This document shows positions 3,220 to 24,929 of a stretch of 47,937 bases of DNA, piece by piece. Position 1 is the stretch's first letter. Each line of letters opens with the position of its first letter. The notes beneath the pieces are model-generated. The model was not told the DNA's origin. It saw only the letters and a list, made by a program, of their open reading frames with translations, and made no database searches. Origin of the DNA: an uncultured Microbacteriaceae bacterium (GTDB taxonomy: Bacteria; Actinomycetota; Actinomycetes; Actinomycetales; Microbacteriaceae); NCBI GenBank assembly GCA_903940225.1, contig CAJAKC010000014.1, positions 1-47,937 of the forward strand. Reading direction: 5' to 3'. The position numbers and the translations under genes were made by a program.

Positions 3220-5976
3220 ATGGCTCGTCCAACGCGCCCCAAGGCGGGTAATTCGAGAGGCTCTGGCGGAACACGCCCGATGCCTCGCGTTTCGGCGAAC
3301 CCGAAGCCCCGCGGACCGAGCATTCTTTCGCGCATGTGGATGGGCCTGGCCCACGGAGCGGGCGCAACTTTCCGAATTTTCATGACCAACACGGTTGCCC
3401 CCGACGAGCGACGCGACGGGCTGCCGTTCGCACTCATTGTGTTCGCCATCGTCGGTGCCCTGACCGAATGGTTTATGCCCGCCGTCGAATGGCTGCAGAC
3501 GGTCGAGAACTACACCATCGGCGGATTCCTCGGTCGAATCGCGTTCGGCATGCCCATCCTGCTCGTGCTGTTGGCCGCGCGGTTGTTCCGCCACCCGGTC
3601 GAGGAAGTCGACAATCGGCGGATCGCGCTGGGCCTCAGCGTCTTCGTGTTGTCGGCGTCAGCGCTGGCACACATTGCCGGCTCCACGCCTCAACCGTCTG
3701 ACGGAGCGAAGGCGCTCGCCGGAGCGGGAGGTCTGCTCGGCTGGGTTGCCGCCGATTGGGTTACGAACGCGGCCACCTCGTGGACAAGCGTCCCGCTGTT
3801 TGTGCTGCTCATCGGTTTGGCCGCCCTGATTGTGACCAAGACTCCGCCGTCGCGCATTGTCGACCGCATCCGCGAATTGTGGGCGCACCTGTTCCCACAC
3901 CAACCGCGTCCAGAACCCGCAACCGCATCGACGAGCGATCTGTCGGGAATGTCGAGCCACAGCGATTTGGGTGACGCCAAGCCGTGGTGGACGATTCGCA
4001 AGAACAAGGACAAGCCTTTTGATTCTGCGGTCGAGGACGAAAAGTCGGACAAATCGGCGACGGGAATCATCGCGGACATGTTCCGCGCCGAAGAGGCCGC
4101 CCGCCAGTTCAACGGAACCGGCGATGTGCCCGACGACGAAGCGCCGACCGAGGTCATCGCGCCGGCCGCGACGGAACCCGGCAACGATGTTGCCACCGGC
4201 ACGCGCGTCACCCCGATCCGCACCGGTCGCCCTTACGCGCTTCCCAAAGATTCGATTCTTGGCAAGGGCGCACCGCCCAAAGCGTCCTCGCCCGTCAACG
4301 ACACGGTCATCGCCGCCATCACCGAAGTCCTCAAACAGTTCGAGGTCAACGCGGCCGTGACCGGTTTCACGCGCGGTCCGTCGGTCACGCGTTACGAGGT
4401 AGAACTCGCCCCCGGCGTCAAGGTTGAACGCGTCACGGCGTTGACCCGAAACATCGAGTACGCGGTCGCGTCGAACGAGGTCACGTTCCTGACCCCCATC
4501 CCGGGCAAGTCGGCCATCGGAATTGAAATCCCCAACATCGACCGCGACATCGTCACGCTCGGTGACGTTCTGCGGTCGCCCGCCGCCATCGCGGCAACCC
4601 ACCCGATGTCGATCGGCGTCGGTAAAGATGTTGAGGGTCAGTTCGTTGTCGCCAACCTTGCCAAGATGCCCCACCTGTTGGTCGCGGGTGCGACGGGCGC
4701 GGGAAAGTCGTCGTTCGTCAACTCGATGATCACGTCCATCCTCATGCGGTCGACCCCCGCCGAGGTGCGCCTGATCCTCGTCGACCCCAAGCGCGTCGAG
4801 CTCTCGGCGTATCAGGGTGTCCCGCACCTCATCACGCCGATCATCACGAACGCCAAGAAGGCCGCCGAAGCGTTGCAGTGGGTCGTCAAAGAGATGGACA
4901 TGCGGTACGACGACCTGCACTCGTTCGGGTTCAAGCACGTCGACGACTTCAACAAGGGCGTTGTCGACGGAACCCTCAAGCCGCTTCCCGGCTCCGAGCG
5001 CGTTCTTCGCGCCTACCCCTACCTCCTCGTCGTCGTTGACGAGCTCGCCGACCTCATGATGGTCGCGCCGCGTGACGTCGAAGAATCCGTTGTCCGCATC
5101 ACACAGCTCGCCCGCGCGGCCGGTATCCACCTGGTGCTCGCTACGCAGCGCCCCTCCGTCGATGTCGTCACTGGGCTGATCAAGGCGAACGTGCCATCAC
5201 GGCTCGCGTTCGCGGTGTCGTCGATGACCGACTCGCGCGTCATCCTCGATACGCAAGGCGCCGAGAAGCTCATCGGTCAGGGTGACGGACTGTTCCTGCC
5301 GATGGGTGCGGCAAAGCCGATTCGCGTCCAGGGCGCGTGGGTTTCGGAAGCCGAGATTCGTACCGTTGTCGAACACGTCAAGAAGCAAGCCGACCCCGAC
5401 TATCGCGACGACGTGCAGGCCACTGTCGCCAAGCGTGAGGTGGACGCCGACATCGGTGACGACCTCGACATCCTGTTGCAGGCCGTCGAGTTGGTCGTCG
5501 GCAGCCAGTTCGGTTCGACTTCGATGCTGCAGCGCAAACTGCGTGTCGGCTTTGCGAAGGCCGGGCGCTTGATGGACCTCATGGAATCCCGGGACATCGT
5601 TGGCCCGTCCGAAGGGTCGAAGGCGCGCGAGGTGCTCGTCTCGGCCGATCAGTTGGCGACCGTCCTTGGTTCGCTCCGCGGCGATGTCGTGGCGGCCCCA
5701 CCCACCCCCGAACCTGCGGTCCGATTCGAGGAACCGGAAGACAACCAGCCAAAGGTTTCGTTTGGCGACGAGGACGACCTTCCCGCTCCGAAGCGCGCAA
5801 ACGAAAACGCCAATTACGATCACGACTTCACCATCCACGTTGATGACACACCGACAAAGCGGACGAAGCGAACCAGCAAGAAGGTCGACGACCCCATCGA
5901 GTCTCAAACGGATGGGTATCCTGAGGTTGAAGGCGAATCCGACGAGGACGCCTGGAACCTGACCGACCGGGAGTAA
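3220..5976 (+). CDS. ftsK: DNA translocase FtsK/SpoIIIE
   Basis: A 918-residue septal DNA pump that clears the chromosome from the closing septum and promotes dimer resolution. N-terminal membrane segments lie at about residues 70-205, followed by a linker, the motor domain with Walker [10 protein letters not shown] (about residue 490) and Walker [13 protein letters not shown], and the gamma winged helix near residues 750-815 ([22 protein letters not shown] family pattern, split here by position). About 100 acidic and basic low-complexity residues follow the gamma domain. TAATCT at 3208-3213 ends 6 bases before ATG 3220, so the mRNA is probably leaderless. pgsA follows after 3 bases. Confidence 0.95.
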
Positions 5977-17375: not shown

Positions 17376-17393
17376 TATACTGAATTCAGTTCA
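17376..17393 (+). promoter_or_regulatory. Operator A: 18-bp palindrome over the -10 of the giant surface protein gene
   Basis: TATACTGAATTCAGTTCA at 17376-17393 matches the ideal palindrome TGAACTGAATTCAGTTCA at 16 of 18 positions; its core ACTGAATTCAGT is perfectly symmetrical. The first six bases are also the -10 hexamer TATACT, so a bound repressor would block transcription. Related copies lie at 24866-24883 and 24912-24929; all three share the 12-mer GAATTCAGTTCA. Confidence 0.78.
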
Positions 17394-17405
17394 ATCGGGG
17401 GAAAG

Positions 17406-20400
17406 ATGGTTCGATCGCGCACAACGGCCGGCAGAAGACCGCCCGTTAAGCCGTCGCACGCGAAAAACCGTCGCTCCGGTTCCCGAACGGCAATCGCTAG
17501 CGCTCTTGCAATCTCGGCCGCCGCTTTTGGTCTGGGATTAACCGCAATCGCGACGCAAACGACGATCGTCGTAGACCTTCCGACCGTCACGTCCATCACG
17601 GGCTCATCTCGAGACATGGACTTCTCGGATCGCGTTTCGCTACCGACCGCCTGGGCAACTTCCCAGTGGATCGTCGCCGAGATCGCGGTCACGCTCCAAG
17701 ACTCCGACAGCGCCGATGTTTATCGTGGTCCTGACAACTGCATCGTCGACCTCAAGGACAATGTCACGTCCTCGACGGTTCTCGCTTACGGTGACACCGC
17801 GCCGAACGCGTTACGCGCGCTTCCGGGGCTGGCCAGCGACATCTTCATCATGAACGACCGCTCGCCGCAAATGTCACTGTCGGGGCCGGCCAATGCCGTC
17901 AAACAGGCGCTTGCCAACGTGCGCGTGAGTTGCGCGACGGCCGCGGGGCTGGCCGGAAAGTATGTTCGGGTCGGCGCGGTGCCAACGGAATCTCCCGCGA
18001 CAATTGACGGTTCCACTGCGAACGGCGCTTTGTTTTACGTGTTCTCAACCAACCACTACTACCGATACTGGAAGGACACCACGACGACAATCGCGTCAAA
18101 CTACACGCGTATCGGCGAAATGATCGACTATGCGGCGACCCAAACGATTACCGTCAACGGGAGCGATGTCAACGTTTCCGGTGCGGCCAGGCCAGCAGGA
18201 TGGGTGGCGACGCTGGAGGAACGAGACGAAATCCTGCTGACGAACGCGGTTGGAGTTGCCGCCAACGGCCCGATGATTGGCCTGACCGATGTCGGTACCG
18301 ATTCCGCAAACCAGGGCGCTTATCTGTCGGGTGGAACATATCGCGTGCAGACGAACGGCAAGAGTTGGGCGTGGAACGCCGCCTGGGGAACAGCGCCAAC
18401 CGGTACGTCTAACTGCACGACGCTCGAGGGCAACTACCGCTGGATTGGACCAGACGCCTGGTGCAAGCGTGTGCCGACGCTGAACACGTTTGACGCGACG
18501 ACAAAGTCGAACACGAGATTTTGGGGCTACAACACCGGCACCGCGCAGTGGGAACCGTGGGTGGACGTGCCCGAGTACACGGTCGCCTCGGCCGCGATTT
18601 CGTCGAATGTCGTCACCGTGACGACGACAGCTGCTCACGGATACGCAGCGAATGATCAGGTGCGCGTTTCGGGGGTCGCCGATTCGGTGAATGGCTGGCG
18701 TACGGTGCTCGCCACTCCGTCCTCGACAACCTTCACGTTCGCTGCCACAGCCGCCGATGCATCCGTCACTCCGTCTGCTGGTCAGGTCACAAAGCAGATT
18801 ACGAACGCCTCCGAGCTGGACATGACGTCCAACAACGTCACCCAAGGGGCGAGCGATTTCAATGGCAGCGCAGTGTGGCATTCGTGGCACATTGCCAGCA
18901 ACTACATCGATGAACCCAACGTGTCCGGCGACTTCGTTTATATGGGGTACGGCGGGGCGTATTGGGATGATGCCCTCCCCGCTGACGGCGTCGAGCGTGA
19001 CGGCCAGCGCCTGGGGAACCAGACGCGTCGGTACATGTTCATTGAATTTTGTTCGGGCCGATCAACCGAATTCACCTGTGCACCGCCGGATTCGGCTGTT
19101 GCATCAACTCTGTTGGCATACGGGCAGACCATTACCTTCGCCAATCCCGGGAACCACACGGCATCGTTCACGATTTCACCAGCACCCTCGACGACGTCGG
19201 GACTGCCGGTCACCCTCACGTCAACGACTCCCTCGGTCTGCATGCTTTCAGGACTGACGGTGACCAAGGTCACGAACGGAAAATGCACACTGGTGGCAAC
19301 ACAGGCGGGGAACGGCACATACCTGGCTGCCCCGCCTGTGACGCGAAGTATCGCGTTCACCAACAACTTCACCCTCAACGTGACCAACGGGCTTGTCCAG
19401 AACTACACCAGTTCGTTGGCTAGTTTCAACGTGGGCCCGGTGACTTTCGTGAATCCGCCCGTCAACGTAACCGTCGATGTGACTCTGACGGACACGGCGG
19501 ATGTCGCTGTCGCCGCCTCGGACGCCTTCCGTCTCGATGTTGGCACGTGGGACACCGCGAATTCGGTTGTCAACGCAGGCACGGCAACCGAGGTCCAGAT
19601 AACCGGCGACAGGTCAACCCAGGTTTCCCTCACCGGCCCTCAGGCGGCGGTGCAGGCAGTTTTGGAGTCGGTACGCATCTATCGCAACGGACAATCGACA
19701 CTCGGGGTCAACGGAGTAACCCGACAAATCAAGGTCACGGGCACGGAGGGTGTTCCGGGTGTCGTGTGGTCCGCCGAACTTAAGCACTATTACCGACTAG
19801 CGACTCGAACGACCAGCGACGGGCTGGGCAGCGTCAACGATTGTTCGTCGTCACCGTGCCAAACGCGGCACTTCGTGAGATGGTCAACTGCCCGCATCGA
19901 TGCAGCTTCAGCCTCGAACAACATCACCGTCAACGGTGCAACCTACAAGGGGTATCTAGCCGCAATCACGACGAAGGCGGAATTTGATTTCATCCGAACA
20001 AAGGTCGCTCAAATTGGTGGCGTCTTGCGACCGGCGTGGGTTGGCGGGTCTGACTTCGAGACGGAGGGCATCTGGAAGTGGGTGGCGGGGCCCGAGGCGT
20101 TAGCGCAAGGTGGCGACCAAGCCTTCACCACGAACGATCGGCTCGACGTCACGAAGTACGACGGCGCGCAATTCTTTGGACCGGTCTTTGACGGTCCGTC
20201 GGTGAACTCGGGTTCAGTTTCGCTGGGGGATACCTCGGCAAGTTTGCGCCGAGACGTGTGTCGCGACCGGGGCGCTCGTGGCACCTGCGACACATCGACT
20301 ACATACGTCCGTTGGTCTCCCGGTAACGCGAGTTATCGCTATGACTGGGACGGTTCGGGTACGGAGATCAGCGGAGCACAGGGTGGCGACGGTGCCTATG

Positions 20401-22415
20401 CACCTCAACCCGACAACTGGGGTGCCTCGAACGATGAAACCGACGGATCCATTGGTGAAGACGGACTGATTATGAACTGGTGTGCCAGCAGTTCGTCCAG
20501 CCTGAATGCCGCCATTACCCCCGTTGATCTCTACGGGACTGGCTCCGCGAATCATTACTGCACGCCAGGCTGGAATGACCTCGCCCACAACAACGTCGAC
20601 ACCTCGACGGACATGTCGGATTGGGCGCTGACCCAGGGAACCACTCAGTATTTGATTGAGTACTGCGGGTACGACGACGATGTGCCGTGTGATGCGCCAT
20701 CGAACGCGGTCGCGACCGTCTCGTTCCAAGTTCAAGACGATTCGACGCAATTGCAGTGGACAATCGCTGGACGCCAGTCGGCGGTGCCGACGGCCGGTGG
20801 AGTCGCCGACGCATCATGCACCACCGGTACCGCAGCAGTCCGCGAAGATTCCCGATACCGAATTCTTACCCTGACGGCACCGGCGAGCGGTAACGGTTCG
20901 TGCACGTGGACCGCCCCCTCGGGTGTCACACAGGTCGAGGTTCTCGCCGTCGGTGGTGGTGGTGGCGGCGGCTACGACGCGGGCGGTGGTGGTGGTGGCG
21001 GGGCAACCGCGTACCACTCGAGCCTCACCGAGTCCTCCCTGTCGATTACGGTCGGTGGTGGCGGTGGTGTCAGTTCCTCCGGAGCGACGTGGGCCGCGAA
21101 GCGCGGCACGGCCGGCACGACAACCACCGTGGCTTCCGGTTCCGTGACGATGTCCGCCGGTGGTGGCGCTGGCGGCAACGGTTGCTCGTGGTCGGGTAAC
21201 CCCGCGCAGTTCTGCGGATCCGGTGGCAATTCGAACACCGGTGGTGCCGGTGGTACGGCAACAGGCGGGACAAGGAACGGTTCGGGCGGAACGGGCGGAA
21301 ATGGCGTCTGGACGAGCGGATCGGTAGCGTCCAACAACCGTACACTGCCGACAAACGGCGCAGATGGTCGTCAAAATCAAATCATCTACGCACTCAATTC
21401 CTATGGCGGTGGCGGTGGCGGTTCGGGGGCCAGCCTCACGCCCGGCAGTGGTGGCGCGGGCGGCGGTGCCGCGGGAACGACATCTAACGGAGCTCCGGCC
21501 GCTGCAACGGCATCCACCGGTGGCGGTGGCGGTGGCGGAAACGGCCCTGGCTCGAGTGGTGGTTCTGGCGTCGTCATCCTGCGCTATTCGACGGACCTCA
21601 TCGCGCAAGCGGGAGCAACAACGGTCAACGTCTCGTTCACCGGAGCAAACTCAGTCAATAACGTCGGCACCCTCAAGCGTCAATGGGCAAGTTTGACCGA
21701 CTCCACCTGCGGAACAACGTGGACCACCGAAGCCGCGAACATCAACTCACTGCCCGATAACTCCAGCCTGACCGGCGGGCGCTGTTACCGCTGGACGTAT
21801 GATTCCGGACTTGCAACAGGCGCGATCGCCCCGACAGATACGGCAAGCTTCTCACCGACGGCGAACCTTACGTCGCCCGTCCTGAAAGTCCCGTTGCAAC
21901 CGTCGCTGATTGCACCCGACACGATTTTGGTCGACCCCCGCACGTCAGCTGTTCCGTTATCAGGGATCACGGTTTCCGGACCGGAACGCGTGCGATTCTG
22001 TGTCTATGAATCGAGCGAATCGACGTTGTCGGGAATCGGTACACCAGCATCAAACACCCGAGTGACCTTTGACGCCGGAACGGTCGGATCGGCAGATTCC
22101 ACCTTCACGCTCACGGGTTCCAGCGCTGATGTGACGGGTGATTTATCGGACGTCATCACGATTCAGGGTTCGCGCGCCATTGCACAAAGCGCACTGAACT
22201 CGATAATCGTGCACCGCACCGTTGGACGCTTTGGAACATCCTCCTACCTGCTGATTCGCGCAATTCCGGTGATAGACGGAGCCAGCTCGATGTGCACGGC
22301 AAACCCCAACGGTCTCGCGCCCGCGGCCTCCAGCACGGTCATGGTGAGGGTCAAACCCGTTGGAATTGAGTTGCGCGAAACGCTGACCATCACACTGGTC
22401 GCGGGTAGACTTTGA
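17406..22415 (+). CDS. Giant secreted surface protein with C-type-lectin-like and Gly-rich domains
   Basis: A 1669-residue protein. Residues 1-27 are very basic and 28-52 hydrophobic, an export signal or anchor. A beta-rich module with the pattern SLSGPANAVKQALANVRV (near 160) recurs as SLTGPQAAVQAVLESVRI (near 740) and more weakly near 1560-1615. Each of the first two precedes a C-type-lectin-like region (about 210-565 and 795-1105) ending in FIEFC or LIEYC; the first holds an inserted small domain (about 385-460). An Ig-like stretch lies near 575-650. Residues 1138-1398 are Gly-rich with runs of seven Gly. No LPXTG sorting signal is seen, so the final location is unclear. Shine-Dalgarno-like GGGGGAAAG lies just before ATG 17406. 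Function unknown; adhesion or matrix is inferred. Confidence 0.82.
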   Translation: MVRSRTTAGRRPPVKPSHAKNRRSGSRTAIASALAISAAAFGLGLTAIATQTTIVVDLPTVTSITGSSRDMDFSDRVSLPTAWATSQWIVAEIAVTLQDSDSADVYRGPDNCIVDLKDNVTSSTVLAYGDTAPNALRALPGLASDIFIMNDRSPQMSLSGPANAVKQALANVRVSCATAAGLAGKYVRVGAVPTESPATIDGSTANGALFYVFSTNHYYRYWKDTTTTIASNYTRIGEMIDYAATQTITVNGSDVNVSGAARPAGWVATLEERDEILLTNAVGVAANGPMIGLTDVGTDSANQGAYLSGGTYRVQTNGKSWAWNAAWGTAPTGTSNCTTLEGNYRWIGPDAWCKRVPTLNTFDATTKSNTRFWGYNTGTAQWEPWVDVPEYTVASAAISSNVVTVTTTAAHGYAANDQVRVSGVADSVNGWRTVLATPSSTTFTFAATAADASVTPSAGQVTKQITNASELDMTSNNVTQGASDFNGSAVWHSWHIASNYIDEPNVSGDFVYMGYGGAYWDDALPADGVERDGQRLGNQTRRYMFIEFCSGRSTEFTCAPPDSAVASTLLAYGQTITFANPGNHTASFTISPAPSTTSGLPVTLTSTTPSVCMLSGLTVTKVTNGKCTLVATQAGNGTYLAAPPVTRSIAFTNNFTLNVTNGLVQNYTSSLASFNVGPVTFVNPPVNVTVDVTLTDTADVAVAASDAFRLDVGTWDTANSVVNAGTATEVQITGDRSTQVSLTGPQAAVQAVLESVRIYRNGQSTLGVNGVTRQIKVTGTEGVPGVVWSAELKHYYRLATRTTSDGLGSVNDCSSSPCQTRHFVRWSTARIDAASASNNITVNGATYKGYLAAITTKAEFDFIRTKVAQIGGVLRPAWVGGSDFETEGIWKWVAGPEALAQGGDQAFTTNDRLDVTKYDGAQFFGPVFDGPSVNSGSVSLGDTSASLRRDVCRDRGARGTCDTSTTYVRWSPGNASYRYDWDGSGTEISGAQGGDGAYAPQPDNWGASNDETDGSIGEDGLIMNWCASSSSSLNAAITPVDLYGTGSANHYCTPGWNDLAHNNVDTSTDMSDWALTQGTTQYLIEYCGYDDDVPCDAPSNAVATVSFQVQDDSTQLQWTIAGRQSAVPTAGGVADASCTTGTAAVREDSRYRILTLTAPASGNGSCTWTAPSGVTQVEVLAVGGGGGGGYDAGGGGGGGATAYHSSLTESSLSITVGGGGGVSSSGATWAAKRGTAGTTTTVASGSVTMSAGGGAGGNGCSWSGNPAQFCGSGGNSNTGGAGGTATGGTRNGSGGTGGNGVWTSGSVASNNRTLPTNGADGRQNQIIYALNSYGGGGGGSGASLTPGSGGAGGGAAGTTSNGAPAAATASTGGGGGGGNGPGSSGGSGVVILRYSTDLIAQAGATTVNVSFTGANSVNNVGTLKRQWASLTDSTCGTTWTTEAANINSLPDNSSLTGGRCYRWTYDSGLATGAIAPTDTASFSPTANLTSPVLKVPLQPSLIAPDTILVDPRTSAVPLSGITVSGPERVRFCVYESSESTLSGIGTPASNTRVTFDAGTVGSADSTFTLTGSSADVTGDLSDVITIQGSRAIAQSALNSIIVHRTVGRFGTSSYLLIRAIPVIDGASSMCTANPNGLAPAASSTVMVRVKPVGIELRETLTITLVAGRL

Positions 22416-22417
22416 CT

Positions 22418-23137
22418 GTGCCACATCGGAATCCACCCTCGATTACGGATGATCTCGCTGATGAGATGTCGCGTTATGACAAGATCATCGAATTAACGAT
22501 TCAGAAAGTCGCGTCGCTGGGTGTGGCCAGTTTTAGCGTCAAAGACGTCTGCGACGAGTTGGGCGTATCGCACAGCCTCATCAACCACCATTACGGTGGA
22601 AAGCACGGGCTGGTCGCAGCCGCTTTGCCGATCGTGTACGCCCGCCATGTCGCCGGCTCGTGGCGTTTGGTCGATGAGTCGAAACGGTCACCCGAAGAAG
22701 CCATTGAAACGTGGATTCGCGTTACCACCCAGTGGAATGTTGCGAACCCCGGTTGGGCCGTCATGCTCAATTACCCGACGGCGTCTCTGGAAACGACGAA
22801 CGCGAGTACACCGGAACAGGCCGACATCCTTTCGCGATGGGGCCAGTACAACCTCGTACGTCTGTTGGGCCTCGTCGTTGACCTGCGTCACAATCGCGCG
22901 ACCGTGACTCCGTATGACAAGGACCGTGGCACGATTGACGACATTGGCGCAACCCAGGTGGAAATTGACGTCGCTGCGACAATCGCGTTCTCGGCCCTGG
23001 GCGTTTACGTCTGGTCAGTCGGCCGACACTTACCCTCGAAAGACCTCCCTCAGGTGCACGAATTGGGCAAGCATGCCGTCGATTTTCACATCAAATACAT
23101 CATTCGCCATGCAAAGAACTTTGACGGGACGCTTTAG
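22418..23137 (+). CDS. TetR-type transcriptional regulator
   Basis: A 239-residue protein with an N-terminal TetR DNA-binding domain (about residues 20-65: IIELTIQKVASLGVASFSVK, then DVCDELGVSHSLINHHYGGK) and a helical ligand/dimer domain. GTG 22418 is favoured because TAGACT at 22406-22411 ends 6 bases before it; a TTG at 22412 overlapping the giant gene's stop is the alternative. It lies between the giant gene and the SipW operon, both preceded by the same palindrome, so it is the best candidate for their regulator (inference). It converges on the collagen-like gene with a 4-base overlap. Confidence 0.85.
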   Translation: MPHRNPPSITDDLADEMSRYDKIIELTIQKVASLGVASFSVKDVCDELGVSHSLINHHYGGKHGLVAAALPIVYARHVAGSWRLVDESKRSPEEAIETWIRVTTQWNVANPGWAVMLNYPTASLETTNASTPEQADILSRWGQYNLVRLLGLVVDLRHNRATVTPYDKDRGTIDDIGATQVEIDVAATIAFSALGVYVWSVGRHLPSKDLPQVHELGKHAVDFHIKYIIRHAKNFDGTL

Positions 23138-23847
23138 TACGCCATTTCAATAATGATCTGGTTGAGGTCACGTGATGCGATGGTGTGCAGTACCGGGTAT
23201 TGCTCTGCCAACAGAGTCAGCGAGTTATCGGAGACAGTGACGGGGCCTGTCTCTAGGACGGTCAGCACCGAGTCGTCATTGTCAATCAGGTAAAGAGCAA
23301 GCGACTGTCCGTTGCAGGCATCACTCAAGTCGTCGATGATGATTCGTCCCAGGATGAGTTCGCCGCCGATGTAGTCGGACCGCAACCGGATGGTGATGTC
23401 CGAATCGCAGGCCTCGACGGTGCCCGCGCCGTTGCCGATGGAGATTGGAGTGCTGTCACCCTGAGGGCCCTGCGGCCCGGTTTGGCCGGCCGGACCTTGC
23501 GCACCAGTCATGCCGTCTCGTCCTGGGGCGCCGTCGGAACCTTCAGATCCGGGGAGTCCATTGGCACCCTCCGAACCGGGCAACCCCCGTGTTCCGGGAT
23601 TCCCGTCTAACCCGTTCGATCCGTTTGTTCCGTTCGCCCCAGCGGGGTAACCGCCCATGTCGGTTATCGCCCACTTCACCGCGTACTTGACCGCAAAGGG
23701 TGTGGTTATCGCAAACAGCAAAATGGCGATGATTATCGCGATGGCACGGAGAGTCCGGCGATGGTCACGCCTACGAATCGCGGCTGCCGCGGTGGCGGCG
23801 AACTCGCCAGCCCGAAAGGCGCCCGAAGGGGGATCGGCGACTGTCAT
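23134..23847 (-). CDS. Collagen-like membrane protein with a C-terminal two-cysteine domain
   Basis: A 237-residue protein. A basic cytoplasmic N-terminus is followed by a membrane helix (about 34-52), then 21 uninterrupted Gly-X-Y triplets (residues 70-132), a collagen-like stalk outside the cell. The last about 100 residues form a beta-rich domain with Cys in EACDSDITIR and DACNGQSLALYL. That domain matches the C-terminus of the SipW substrate at 24367-24843 in spacing and motif. ATG 23847 overlaps the signal peptidase stop (ATGA), fixing the start and showing one operon. Confidence 0.85.
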   Translation of the reverse strand: MTVADPPSGAFRAGEFAATAAAAIRRRDHRRTLRAIAIIIAILLFAITTPFAVKYAVKWAITDMGGYPAGANGTNGSNGLDGNPGTRGLPGSEGANGLPGSEGSDGAPGRDGMTGAQGPAGQTGPQGPQGDSTPISIGNGAGTVEACDSDITIRLRSDYIGGELILGRIIIDDLSDACNGQSLALYLIDNDDSVLTVLETGPVTVSDNSLTLLAEQYPVLHTIASRDLNQIIIEMAY

Positions 23848-24299
23848 CGCGAACGACGCTGGGGCCAGAACCACCAGACGAGGAAGACGACTAGTCCGGC
23901 ACCCAGGCCGTAGAGGCCGAGGCTCCAGTCGAGTGAGTTGATGCCGGGAATTCGGAACACAGCAACGCCCAACACGTCTTCGGCGGTGGGGTGCTGGACA
24001 TCGGCAATTGGGTTTGCATCACCTTTTACGACCCAGCCGTCCGCGGCAGTGTCGACGATTCGGTGAGTGAAGTTGGCGATCGGTTCGCCGTCGAAACTCG
24101 TGCCCTGGTAAATGACGACATCACCAACGACGGGGGAGCGGTACTCGTCGTTGATCGTTACCACGAGGTCACCCGCGTTGATGGCCGGTTCCATCGAACC
24201 CGTCATGACATAGCTGACGCGAGCGACATCGAAAGCGGCAAGACTAGCGAAACCAGCGACAATAAGCCCCAGGAAGACGAGCCAGATCGTATTTTTCAT
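23844..24299 (-). CDS. sipW: SipW-type signal peptidase I
   Basis: A 151-residue membrane serine protease of the archaeal/ER type. The catalytic Ser35 lies in MTGSMEP and the partner is His79 in NFTHRIV instead of the Lys of ordinary bacterial signal peptidases; VKGDANPIAD completes the site. Membrane segments lie at both ends (about 5-23 and 126-144). SipW enzymes process a special class of exported matrix proteins such as TasA. Here the probable substrate is encoded just upstream and a collagen-like protein just downstream, all on one strand. Confidence 0.92.
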   Translation of the reverse strand: MKNTIWLVFLGLIVAGFASLAAFDVARVSYVMTGSMEPAINAGDLVVTINDEYRSPVVGDVVIYQGTSFDGEPIANFTHRIVDTAADGWVVKGDANPIADVQHPTAEDVLGVAVFRIPGINSLDWSLGLYGLGAGLVVFLVWWFWPQRRSR

Positions 24300-24316
24300 T
24301 GCGTTCCTCTATGTGA

Positions 24317-24353
24317 ACGAATCCCGAGAATGGTCGCCATCCTCGGGATTCGT
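24317..24353 (-). promoter_or_regulatory. Strong intercistronic hairpin between the matrix gene and sipW
   Basis: ACGAATCCCGAG at 24317-24328 is the exact complement of CTCGGGATTCGT at 24342-24353. Inside, ATGG 24330-24333 pairs with CCAT 24337-24340 around a TCG loop, so the stem is about 16 bp with one mismatch. No T-tract follows on the transcribed strand. This is likely a partial attenuator, RNase-processing site or 3' stabiliser that would let the upstream gene be expressed above the peptidase. Confidence 0.72.
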
Positions 24354-24366
24354 GTCGCAGGGGTGG

Positions 24367-24843
24367 TTATCGAACTTCGAGAGCGAAGCCTGCAACCTCG
24401 GAAGCGAGCACCGTGCCTTCGACCTCGACCACGACGTCGTCGGCGCCAGCGACCGCATTGTCGGAGTCTGTGATCGTGACGGCAGTCGTGGTGATGTCGT
24501 TCTCAGATCCTGTGAGCTTGATGACGAGCTGAACCGATTCACCCGCACAGGCTTCGTCGATCGACGAGAGGGTCACCGTGTTCAACAGGAACGTCCCGGA
24601 CGATTCGCTGTAGTTCGATGCGGGGGTGATGTCGATTGTTGCGTCGCAGGTAGCAGTTCCCTGGCTACCCTGTGCAAACTGGATGTCGGTGTCACTGTTG
24701 AGTGAGATGTTTGCAGCGTAGGTCGAACCGATGATCGGTACGAGTGCGGCGACAGCGATACCGGCAATGATGGGCGCAACTCCGCGCTTGCGGCGCGACT
24801 CTGCTGCTCGCTTGTCCTTGCGGGACTGGAGTTCGTTTTCCAT
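24367..24843 (-). CDS. SipW-dependent exported matrix-type protein
   Basis: A 158-residue protein with a SipW-type signal: a basic start (MENELQSRKDKRAAESRRKR), a hydrophobic segment (about 21-38) and a likely cut near STYA-AN. The mature part is a beta-rich domain with Cys in ATCDATIDI and EACAGESVQLVI, the same pattern as the collagen-like protein of this operon. TasA and camelysin are the known SipW substrates; this one is smaller and not clearly TasA. AAAAGGATAAACACC precedes the ATG. Operators B and C lie upstream. Confidence 0.82.
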   Translation of the reverse strand: MENELQSRKDKRAAESRRKRGVAPIIAGIAVAALVPIIGSTYAANISLNSDTDIQFAQGSQGTATCDATIDITPASNYSESSGTFLLNTVTLSSIDEACAGESVQLVIKLTGSENDITTTAVTITDSDNAVAGADDVVVEVEGTVLASEVAGFALEVR

Positions 24844-24865
24844 GGTGTTTATCCTTTTGTAGAAG

Positions 24866-24883
24866 TGAACTGAATTCGATTCA
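24866..24883 (-). promoter_or_regulatory. Operator B of the SipW operon
   Basis: TGAACTGAATTCGATTCA on the plus strand matches the palindrome TGAACTGAATTCAGTTCA at 16 of 18 positions. It lies 23 bases before the ATG of the matrix-type gene, close to where transcription should start. I could not assign the -10 hexamer with confidence. Confidence 0.72.
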
Positions 24884-24911
24884 GCAGTAAAAAACTAGCA
24901 CAAAATTGTCC

Positions 24912-24929
24912 TAAATGGAATTCAGTTCA
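24912..24929 (-). promoter_or_regulatory. Operator C of the SipW operon
   Basis: TAAATGGAATTCAGTTCA on the plus strand matches the palindrome at 15 of 18 positions and shares GAATTCAGTTCA exactly with operator A. It is centred 46 bp from operator B, so two dimers could bind the same promoter region. Confidence 0.65.

Follow-up and report, generated by a model that had tools for sequence, protein, structure and literature searches.

Organization of the locus

The DNA analysed here is a stretch of 47,937 nt from an uncultured Microbacteriaceae bacterium, referred to throughout as the window. It carries a giant gene followed on the same strand by a TetR-family gene, an operon on the opposite strand that encodes a SipW-type signal peptidase, and three candidate operator sites, for which mismatches are counted against the 18-mer consensus TGAACTGAATTCAGTTCA:

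17376..17393, plus strand: candidate operator site 1 (TATACTGAATTCAGTTCA); 2 mismatches; ends 12 nt before the giant gene start codon and includes TATACT
17406..22415, plus strand: giant protein gene, 1669 aa, presumed secreted; open reading frame and domain matches
22412..23137, plus strand: TetR-family regulator P0002, 241 aa, TTG start; TetR_N PF00440 at 26.7 bits (cut-off 24)
23134..23874, minus strand: collagen-like protein; PF01391 at 38.3 bits (cut-off 27.2), Gly-X-Y repeats
23844..24299, minus strand: SipW/ER-type signal peptidase P0004; TIGR02228 at 62.5 bits (cut-off 51.85)
24367..24843, minus strand: small exported protein of 158 aa, encoded first in the operon; presumed substrate of SipW, with position as the sole ground for the name 'TasA-like'
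24866..24883, minus strand: candidate operator site 2 (minus strand TGAATCGAATTCAGTTCA); 2 mismatches; 22 nt before the small exported protein start
24912..24929, minus strand: candidate operator site 3 (minus strand TGAACTGAATTCCATTTA); 3 mismatches; centre 46 bp upstream of site 2

As in the preliminary description of this DNA, a SipW operon is present; it runs on the minus strand from 24843 to 23134 in the order small exported protein, SipW/ER-type peptidase and collagen-like protein, and its peptidase scores above the TIGR02228 cut-off. SipW/ER-type signal peptidases are defined by a Ser-His catalytic pair instead of Ser-Lys, and Ser35 and His79 of P0004 are invariant in 8 aligned sequences; the equivalog for Bacillus SipW itself, NF046067, is matched at 30.2 bits and its cut-off of 190 is not reached. 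In its C-terminal part, at 23143-23454, the collagen-like protein shows a relationship to the small exported protein (profile E 4.9e-10), and profile searches recovered the same kinship in six other genomes (G006, G014, G060, G107, G130 and G308); on this evidence, the two proteins may both enter one structure. A TasA identity for the small exported protein was looked for by family, sequence and fold and was not found: there was no match in Pfam or NCBIfam at E 0.01, no relative among PDB sequences (a viral fusion protein was the one match, at E 0.066) and no match in a fold search (best E 0.3), which used a model of moderate confidence (pLDDT 65.6).

The giant protein contains two copies of a lectin-like region, from about residues 216 and 792, a Gly_rich_2 domain at residues 1163-1394 (61.3 bits, cut-off 24.3) and, from about residue 1499, a C-terminal 'VDPR' domain (window 21900-22412). 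Its open reading frame of 1669 residues stands as described earlier. The label 'lectin-like' is weakly supported by a Lectin_C match in copy 2 (15 bits against a cut-off of 22.6, E 0.044), with none in copy 1; a single-sequence structure model of the copies had a pLDDT of 32. Six loci (window, L063, L064, L065, L075 and L049) each encode, next to the operon, one large protein with the 'VDPR' domain, which perhaps serves in anchoring or assembly. The domain has two conserved cysteines, and the large proteins that carry it differ in their N-terminal make-up.

Between these two sets of genes, where a TetR-type gene had been noted, P0002 occupies 22412-23137 with a TetR_N match above the cut-off and a recognition helix that reads VSHSLINHHYG; the TetR_N scores of several relatives lie just under the cut-off of 24 (L063, 21.8; L075, 21.9; L033, 22.4; L127, 23.6 bits). 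The best PDB profile match to P0002 is 3e7q (E 5.4e-10), covering the N-terminal part only (profile 26-112 of 244). The start of the TetR gene overlaps the stop of the giant gene by 4 nt on the same strand, so the two genes probably share one transcript, in which case site 1 would control the TetR gene as well. In the same genome and in G003, paralogous TetR genes also adjoin genes for presumed secreted proteins (L040:8496-10444 and L039:1045-2860), hinting that a habit of sitting beside secreted-protein genes is wider in this TetR group than the present cluster.

Three palindromic sites in the window and its genome

Scanning the window for TGAACTGAATTCAGTTCA with up to 3 mismatches returned exactly three matches, sites 1, 2 and 3. 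As had been reported for them, they fit the 18-mer at 16, 16 and 15 of 18 positions and share GAATTCAGTTCA; site 2 carries it on its minus strand. Shuffled versions of the window gave a mean of 0.02 matches, and three matches were reached in 0 of 100 shuffles. The sites are also unique in their genome: in G000 (1,371,322 bases, 49 contigs, 94% complete) the same scan, which had been proposed as a check, found only the three window sites in 1.37 Mb, and the reversed control pattern gave 0. Many unrelated copies, which would count against a dedicated operator, are thus not seen in the organism's own genome.

One could still read the similarity of the sites as chance, or as a short local duplication with no regulatory role. 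The consensus was derived from the window's own three sites, and scaling up the window shuffle background (0.02 per 48 kb) gives a chance expectation of about 0.6 matches per genome at 3 mismatches. The signal therefore goes beyond rarity and lies in the placement of three sites at two promoters, 7.5 kb from each other, and since the consensus was made from these same sites, the outside test has to come from other genomes.

The position of site 1 bears on how a bound protein would act. The preliminary description placed this site over the -10 of the giant gene; a possible -10, TATACT at 17376-17381, does lie inside it (the -10 remarks were made by eye), whereas a sigma-70-type scan recognised a promoter neither at site 1 nor before the SipW operon. 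The lack of a recognised promoter before either unit would suit a TetR-family protein that works as an activator, for instance by acting at weak promoters. Against this reading, site 1 takes in the possible -10 and stops 12 nt short of the start codon, where a bound protein should act as a block, and most TetR proteins are repressors. We regard activation as distinctly improbable here and repression as the preferred mode of action.

Recurrence of the palindrome in related clusters

Related operons were sought by a protein search of 299 genomes of the family (6 with matches), by scanning titled genome contigs (12 loci) and by running a profile against 398 family genomes (matches in 9). Weak family matches in two larger genomes, G116 and G160, turned out to be small SipW loci without the cluster and were set aside. 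Four further clusters were obtained: L063 (genome G060), L064 (G130), L075 (G308) and L049 (G014). Each contains one or more small exported proteins, a SipW-type peptidase, a collagen-like protein and an adjoining giant or large presumed secreted protein. A TetR gene is linked to the cluster in L063, L064 and L075; L049 is an 8.4 kb contig without one; its genome, G014, belongs to the window's genus and encodes its TetR of this group on a contig separate from the operon. L063, L064 and L075 were found by protein alone, while L049 was first noticed through the motif and later also by protein. G308 appears to belong to a family other than the window's (43 and 398 genomes, respectively, in the family searches, with the rest of the 43 all new to the analysis).

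The comparison of upstream regions of orthologous clusters, which had been suggested as a check on the operator, bore it out: the 18-mer is conserved in all four. With the pattern held fixed, the best upstream matches have 3 (L063), 2 (L064), 2 (L075) and 1 (L049) mismatches, and for each cluster 0 of 2000 dinucleotide shuffles equalled them, the upstream regions for this test having been drawn from gene starts after the sites were already known. In L063 (3 mismatches) and L064 (2 mismatches) the best site precedes the second small exported protein; in L049 (1 mismatch) it precedes the only one, and in L075 (2 mismatches) it lies in the gap that separates the first small exported protein from a divergently oriented secreted gene. 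Weaker matches, with 4 mismatches each, occur in the giant-side gap of L063 and before the second small-protein gene of L075, and the giant-side gaps of L064 and L049 have no clear site (best 5 and 6 mismatches). The pattern expected from the earlier proposal, that one palindrome links the giant gene to the SipW operon, is thus seen in the window and in the divergent gaps of L063 (4 mismatches) and L075 (2 mismatches), but not clearly in L064 (5) or L049 (6). A site that would serve both units is clear in the window and fair in L063 and L075 (shared divergent gap). For the SipW operon the putative shared operator has good support, for the giant gene fair support.

We additionally ranked all 198 18-mers of the window's two upstream regions by their best matches in the other clusters, a test in which no pattern is specified. 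The top 35 of the 198 overlap the sites by at least 10 bases, the first with no overlap at all appearing at rank 54; the baseline is 51 of 198 18-mers that overlap the sites by 10 bases or more. When only the three protein-found clusters were used, the top 41 overlap the sites to that extent and the first 18-mer with no overlap is at rank 53. The most conserved 18-mers upstream in the window are those of the sites, and four other clusters carry the fixed pattern upstream (equalled by 0 of 2000 shuffles in each case); together these results make chance or local duplication a very remote explanation. The site is instead probably a real shared control switch.

The pattern is confined to a subset of the related operons. 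In 13 upstream regions of eight other loci (L065, L066, L067, L073, L074, L076, L078 and L079) the best matches have 7 to 10 mismatches and were equalled by 49 to 291 of 300 shuffles; the contigs of L065, L066, L073 and L078 are shorter than 10 kb, and a linked TetR may lie beyond their ends. Two loci were left out of this set. L077 starts inside a gene and offers no upstream region, and nothing within 5 mismatches was found across the whole locus; L171 was scanned solely for CTGAA/TTCAG spacings, of which there were none.

Nine aligned sites suggest a putative operator in the form of a palindrome of about 20 bp, CTRAACTGAATTCAGTTYAG, in which positions 5, 8 and 9 and their partners are invariant. 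A shorter operator, CTGAA-N5-TTCAG, was also considered; it is exact in several sites, yet it is not above the reversed control in most of 14 genomes, and for this reason the 20-bp palindrome is preferred. Upstream of the G130 TetR gene there are two wider-spaced CTGAA/TTCAG palindromes (CTGAATGTAAATTCAG and CTGAATTATCGTTCAG; L064:13301-13357). The genes around the G130 cluster (L064) match, by eye, those around a second TetR of G060 (L132) where no cluster is present, suggesting a move of the SipW cluster.

Association of the site with the TetR clade

In a phylogenetic tree of 41 rows, the TetRs encoded beside site-bearing clusters, together with the G014 TetR, fall within one set of 15 (support 99/98), which also includes TetRs without sites. 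The branch leading to the window TetR is long (1.83), and this protein shares no more than 37% identity with any other row. The cluster-linked TetRs and that of G014 have recognition helices close to VSxSLINHHFG (ISMALINYHFG in L075), and in many TetR paralogues of the same genera the helix differs.

All four clusters with a linked TetR of this clade (window, L063, L064 and L075) carry the palindrome. Counting by genome, those that have a cluster and such a TetR carry the site at the cluster in 5 of 7 cases (G000, G014, G060, G130 and G308, not G107 or G168), and those that have a cluster and a readable upstream region without such a TetR carry it in 0 of 3 (G006, which has no TetR of this helix, and G309 and G311, which have no TetR match at all). 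G310, also without such a TetR, was not counted as its contig starts inside a gene.

G107 and G168 have related operons and, on other contigs, TetRs with the helix SLINHHFG. There is no site within 3 mismatches anywhere in either genome, and the operon upstream regions give chance-level matches only. Loss of the palindrome with retention of the TetR gene, the observation that the preliminary description had named as damaging to the pairing, is therefore absent where the TetR is linked (4 of 4 clusters keep the site) and partly seen in these two genomes, where it is unlinked. By eye, the genes next to their TetRs look thioesterase-like and ABC-type. G007 has such a TetR and neither site nor small exported protein, and for the second TetR of the set in G060 (G060:C4) nothing under 5 mismatches was found in the surrounding 20 kb. 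The same holds for the stretches around the unlinked same-helix TetRs (L127-L130, L132, L033 and L034), with one match each at 5 mismatches in L127 and L132. Given the site-less cases in G107, G168, G007 and the second TetR of G060, a matching helix is not enough to predict the site; the regulators concerned may recognise an operator that has drifted, or serve other targets.

Across the family, 7 of 398 genomes match the 18-mer within 2 mismatches and 2 match the reversed control. Three of the seven have the match at the cluster (G000, G014 and G130), and in the other four (G206, G295, G296 and G379) none has a cluster gene within 1.5 kb; G060 is missing from this count because its site has 3 mismatches. 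In G308 the scan at up to 3 mismatches gave three matches (control, 1), of which a single one is at the cluster.

The same-helix TetRs without nearby sites (G107, G168, G007 and G060:C4), and the presence of the site in G014 with no TetR on the same contig, lend some weight to another reading, in which the palindrome is a real conserved operator bound by a regulator encoded elsewhere and the linked TetR recognises other DNA or is a passenger. This reading sits poorly with the linkage itself, in that the clade TetR is accompanied by the site in 4 of 4 clusters, window included, and with the G006 operon described below, where a different linked TetR goes with a different palindrome that also stands 7 nt before that TetR gene. 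We consider it unlikely, if less so than activation, and take the window TetR as the likely binder of the palindrome.

Apparent exchange of regulator and operator in G006

G006 is of the same genus as the window. Two other TetR-family genes (TetR_N 44.1 and 59.6 bits) border its operon, L067, and one of them encodes a quite different recognition helix. L067 lacks the window palindrome and has a different one, CATCTAACAATGTTAGATG, 31 nt before the small exported protein; a further copy, with 2 mismatches, precedes one of the TetR genes by 7 nt, both distances being counted from mechanically called starts. The two sites are at L067:4312-4330 and 5587-5605, and 0 of 200 shuffles gave as many matches. 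G006 has two distant TetR paralogues (E 1.8e-45 and 4.3e-38) with helices of other types, and elsewhere in its genome there is one match to the window motif within 3 mismatches. From these positions, regulator and operator appear to have been exchanged together in G006. In G280, the genes for a related TetR and for a 1193-aa fibronectin-III protein are divergently oriented, and the gap between them (L139:8930-9038) contains CTGAAATAACTTCAG and CTGAAATGATTTCAG.

A model for coordinated control of the surface-protein genes

The mechanism that we propose, and hold to be probable, is a small regulon of surface proteins coordinated by a TetR repressor whose own gene is under the same control. A dimer of P0002 (22412-23137) would bind the palindrome of about 20 bp, CTRAACTGAATTCAGTTYAG. 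Occupation of site 1 would switch off the regulator's own transcription unit, comprising the giant protein and the TetR, and thereby amount to autorepression, while occupation of sites 2 and 3 would switch off the SipW operon. Binding of a small ligand to the TetR would then release both units, and the cell would make the giant and collagen-like proteins together with the SipW-type peptidase and its presumed small exported substrate; the products would assemble into a surface fibre or matrix. That these products act together is suggested by the domain shared by the collagen-like and small exported proteins and by the 'VDPR' domain common to six loci. The matrix and the possible switch envisaged in the preliminary description are, at this stage, conjecture.

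More tentatively, and with more doubt than confidence, the locus could represent a modular surface-fibre system of aquatic actinobacteria from at least two families. The TetR, its operators and the SipW/collagen/giant cluster would then form one unit in which the TetR and palindrome have been swapped in some relatives, and the giant and collagen-like proteins would be co-expressed in one ligand-controlled structure. Judging from its relatives, the window organism is presumably a freshwater actinobacterium, a group described as ubiquitous and abundant in the portion of the source drawn on here (PMC11577799). The same source reports that genomes have been edited in Rhodoluna lacicola and Aurantimicrobium photophilum. 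If the model is correct, small-genome and mostly uncultured actinobacteria would gain a defined regulator of surface proteins, with a 20-bp operator and a small regulon.

Comparison with known systems

Other loci in actinobacterial metagenome-assembled genomes (L073, L074 and L076-L079) encode related small exported proteins, with SipW-type and collagen-like proteins in L074 and L077. No site within 4 mismatches occurs anywhere in these loci, and no clade TetR was found in the three genomes searched from this group (G309-G311); the contigs of L073, L077 and L078 are shorter than 6 kb, too short to judge TetR linkage. In the open-licence literature, surveyed by titles and abstract openings, we found no description of such a SipW/TetR system.

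On the side of the regulator, the closest likeness is to TetR autoregulatory repressors, which also have a TetR_N helix-turn-helix and a palindrome of about 20 bp before their own unit and before a second target. The present system differs from them in that its putative targets are surface-protein genes and in that the regulator has no close solved relative.

On the side of the operon, the likeness is to tapA-sipW-tasA of Bacillus and sipW-calY of B. cereus, in which a SipW-type peptidase is likewise encoded with small exported proteins. Several relatives of the window operon have two small exported proteins in tandem. Unlike the Bacillus operons, the window cluster adds a collagen-like and a giant protein. 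Bacillus sipW operons are under SinR control, and in the window a putative TetR palindrome is found instead. SinR is a repressor of biofilm genes, according to the part of the article used (PMC3163267). The resemblance of the window operon to Bacillus sipW operons, including the sipW-calY1-calY2 arrangement of B. cereus (PMC10151520), is drawn from portions of two reports (PMC10151520, PMC13082335). If our reading is right, the window would provide an example of a SipW-type operon under TetR control.
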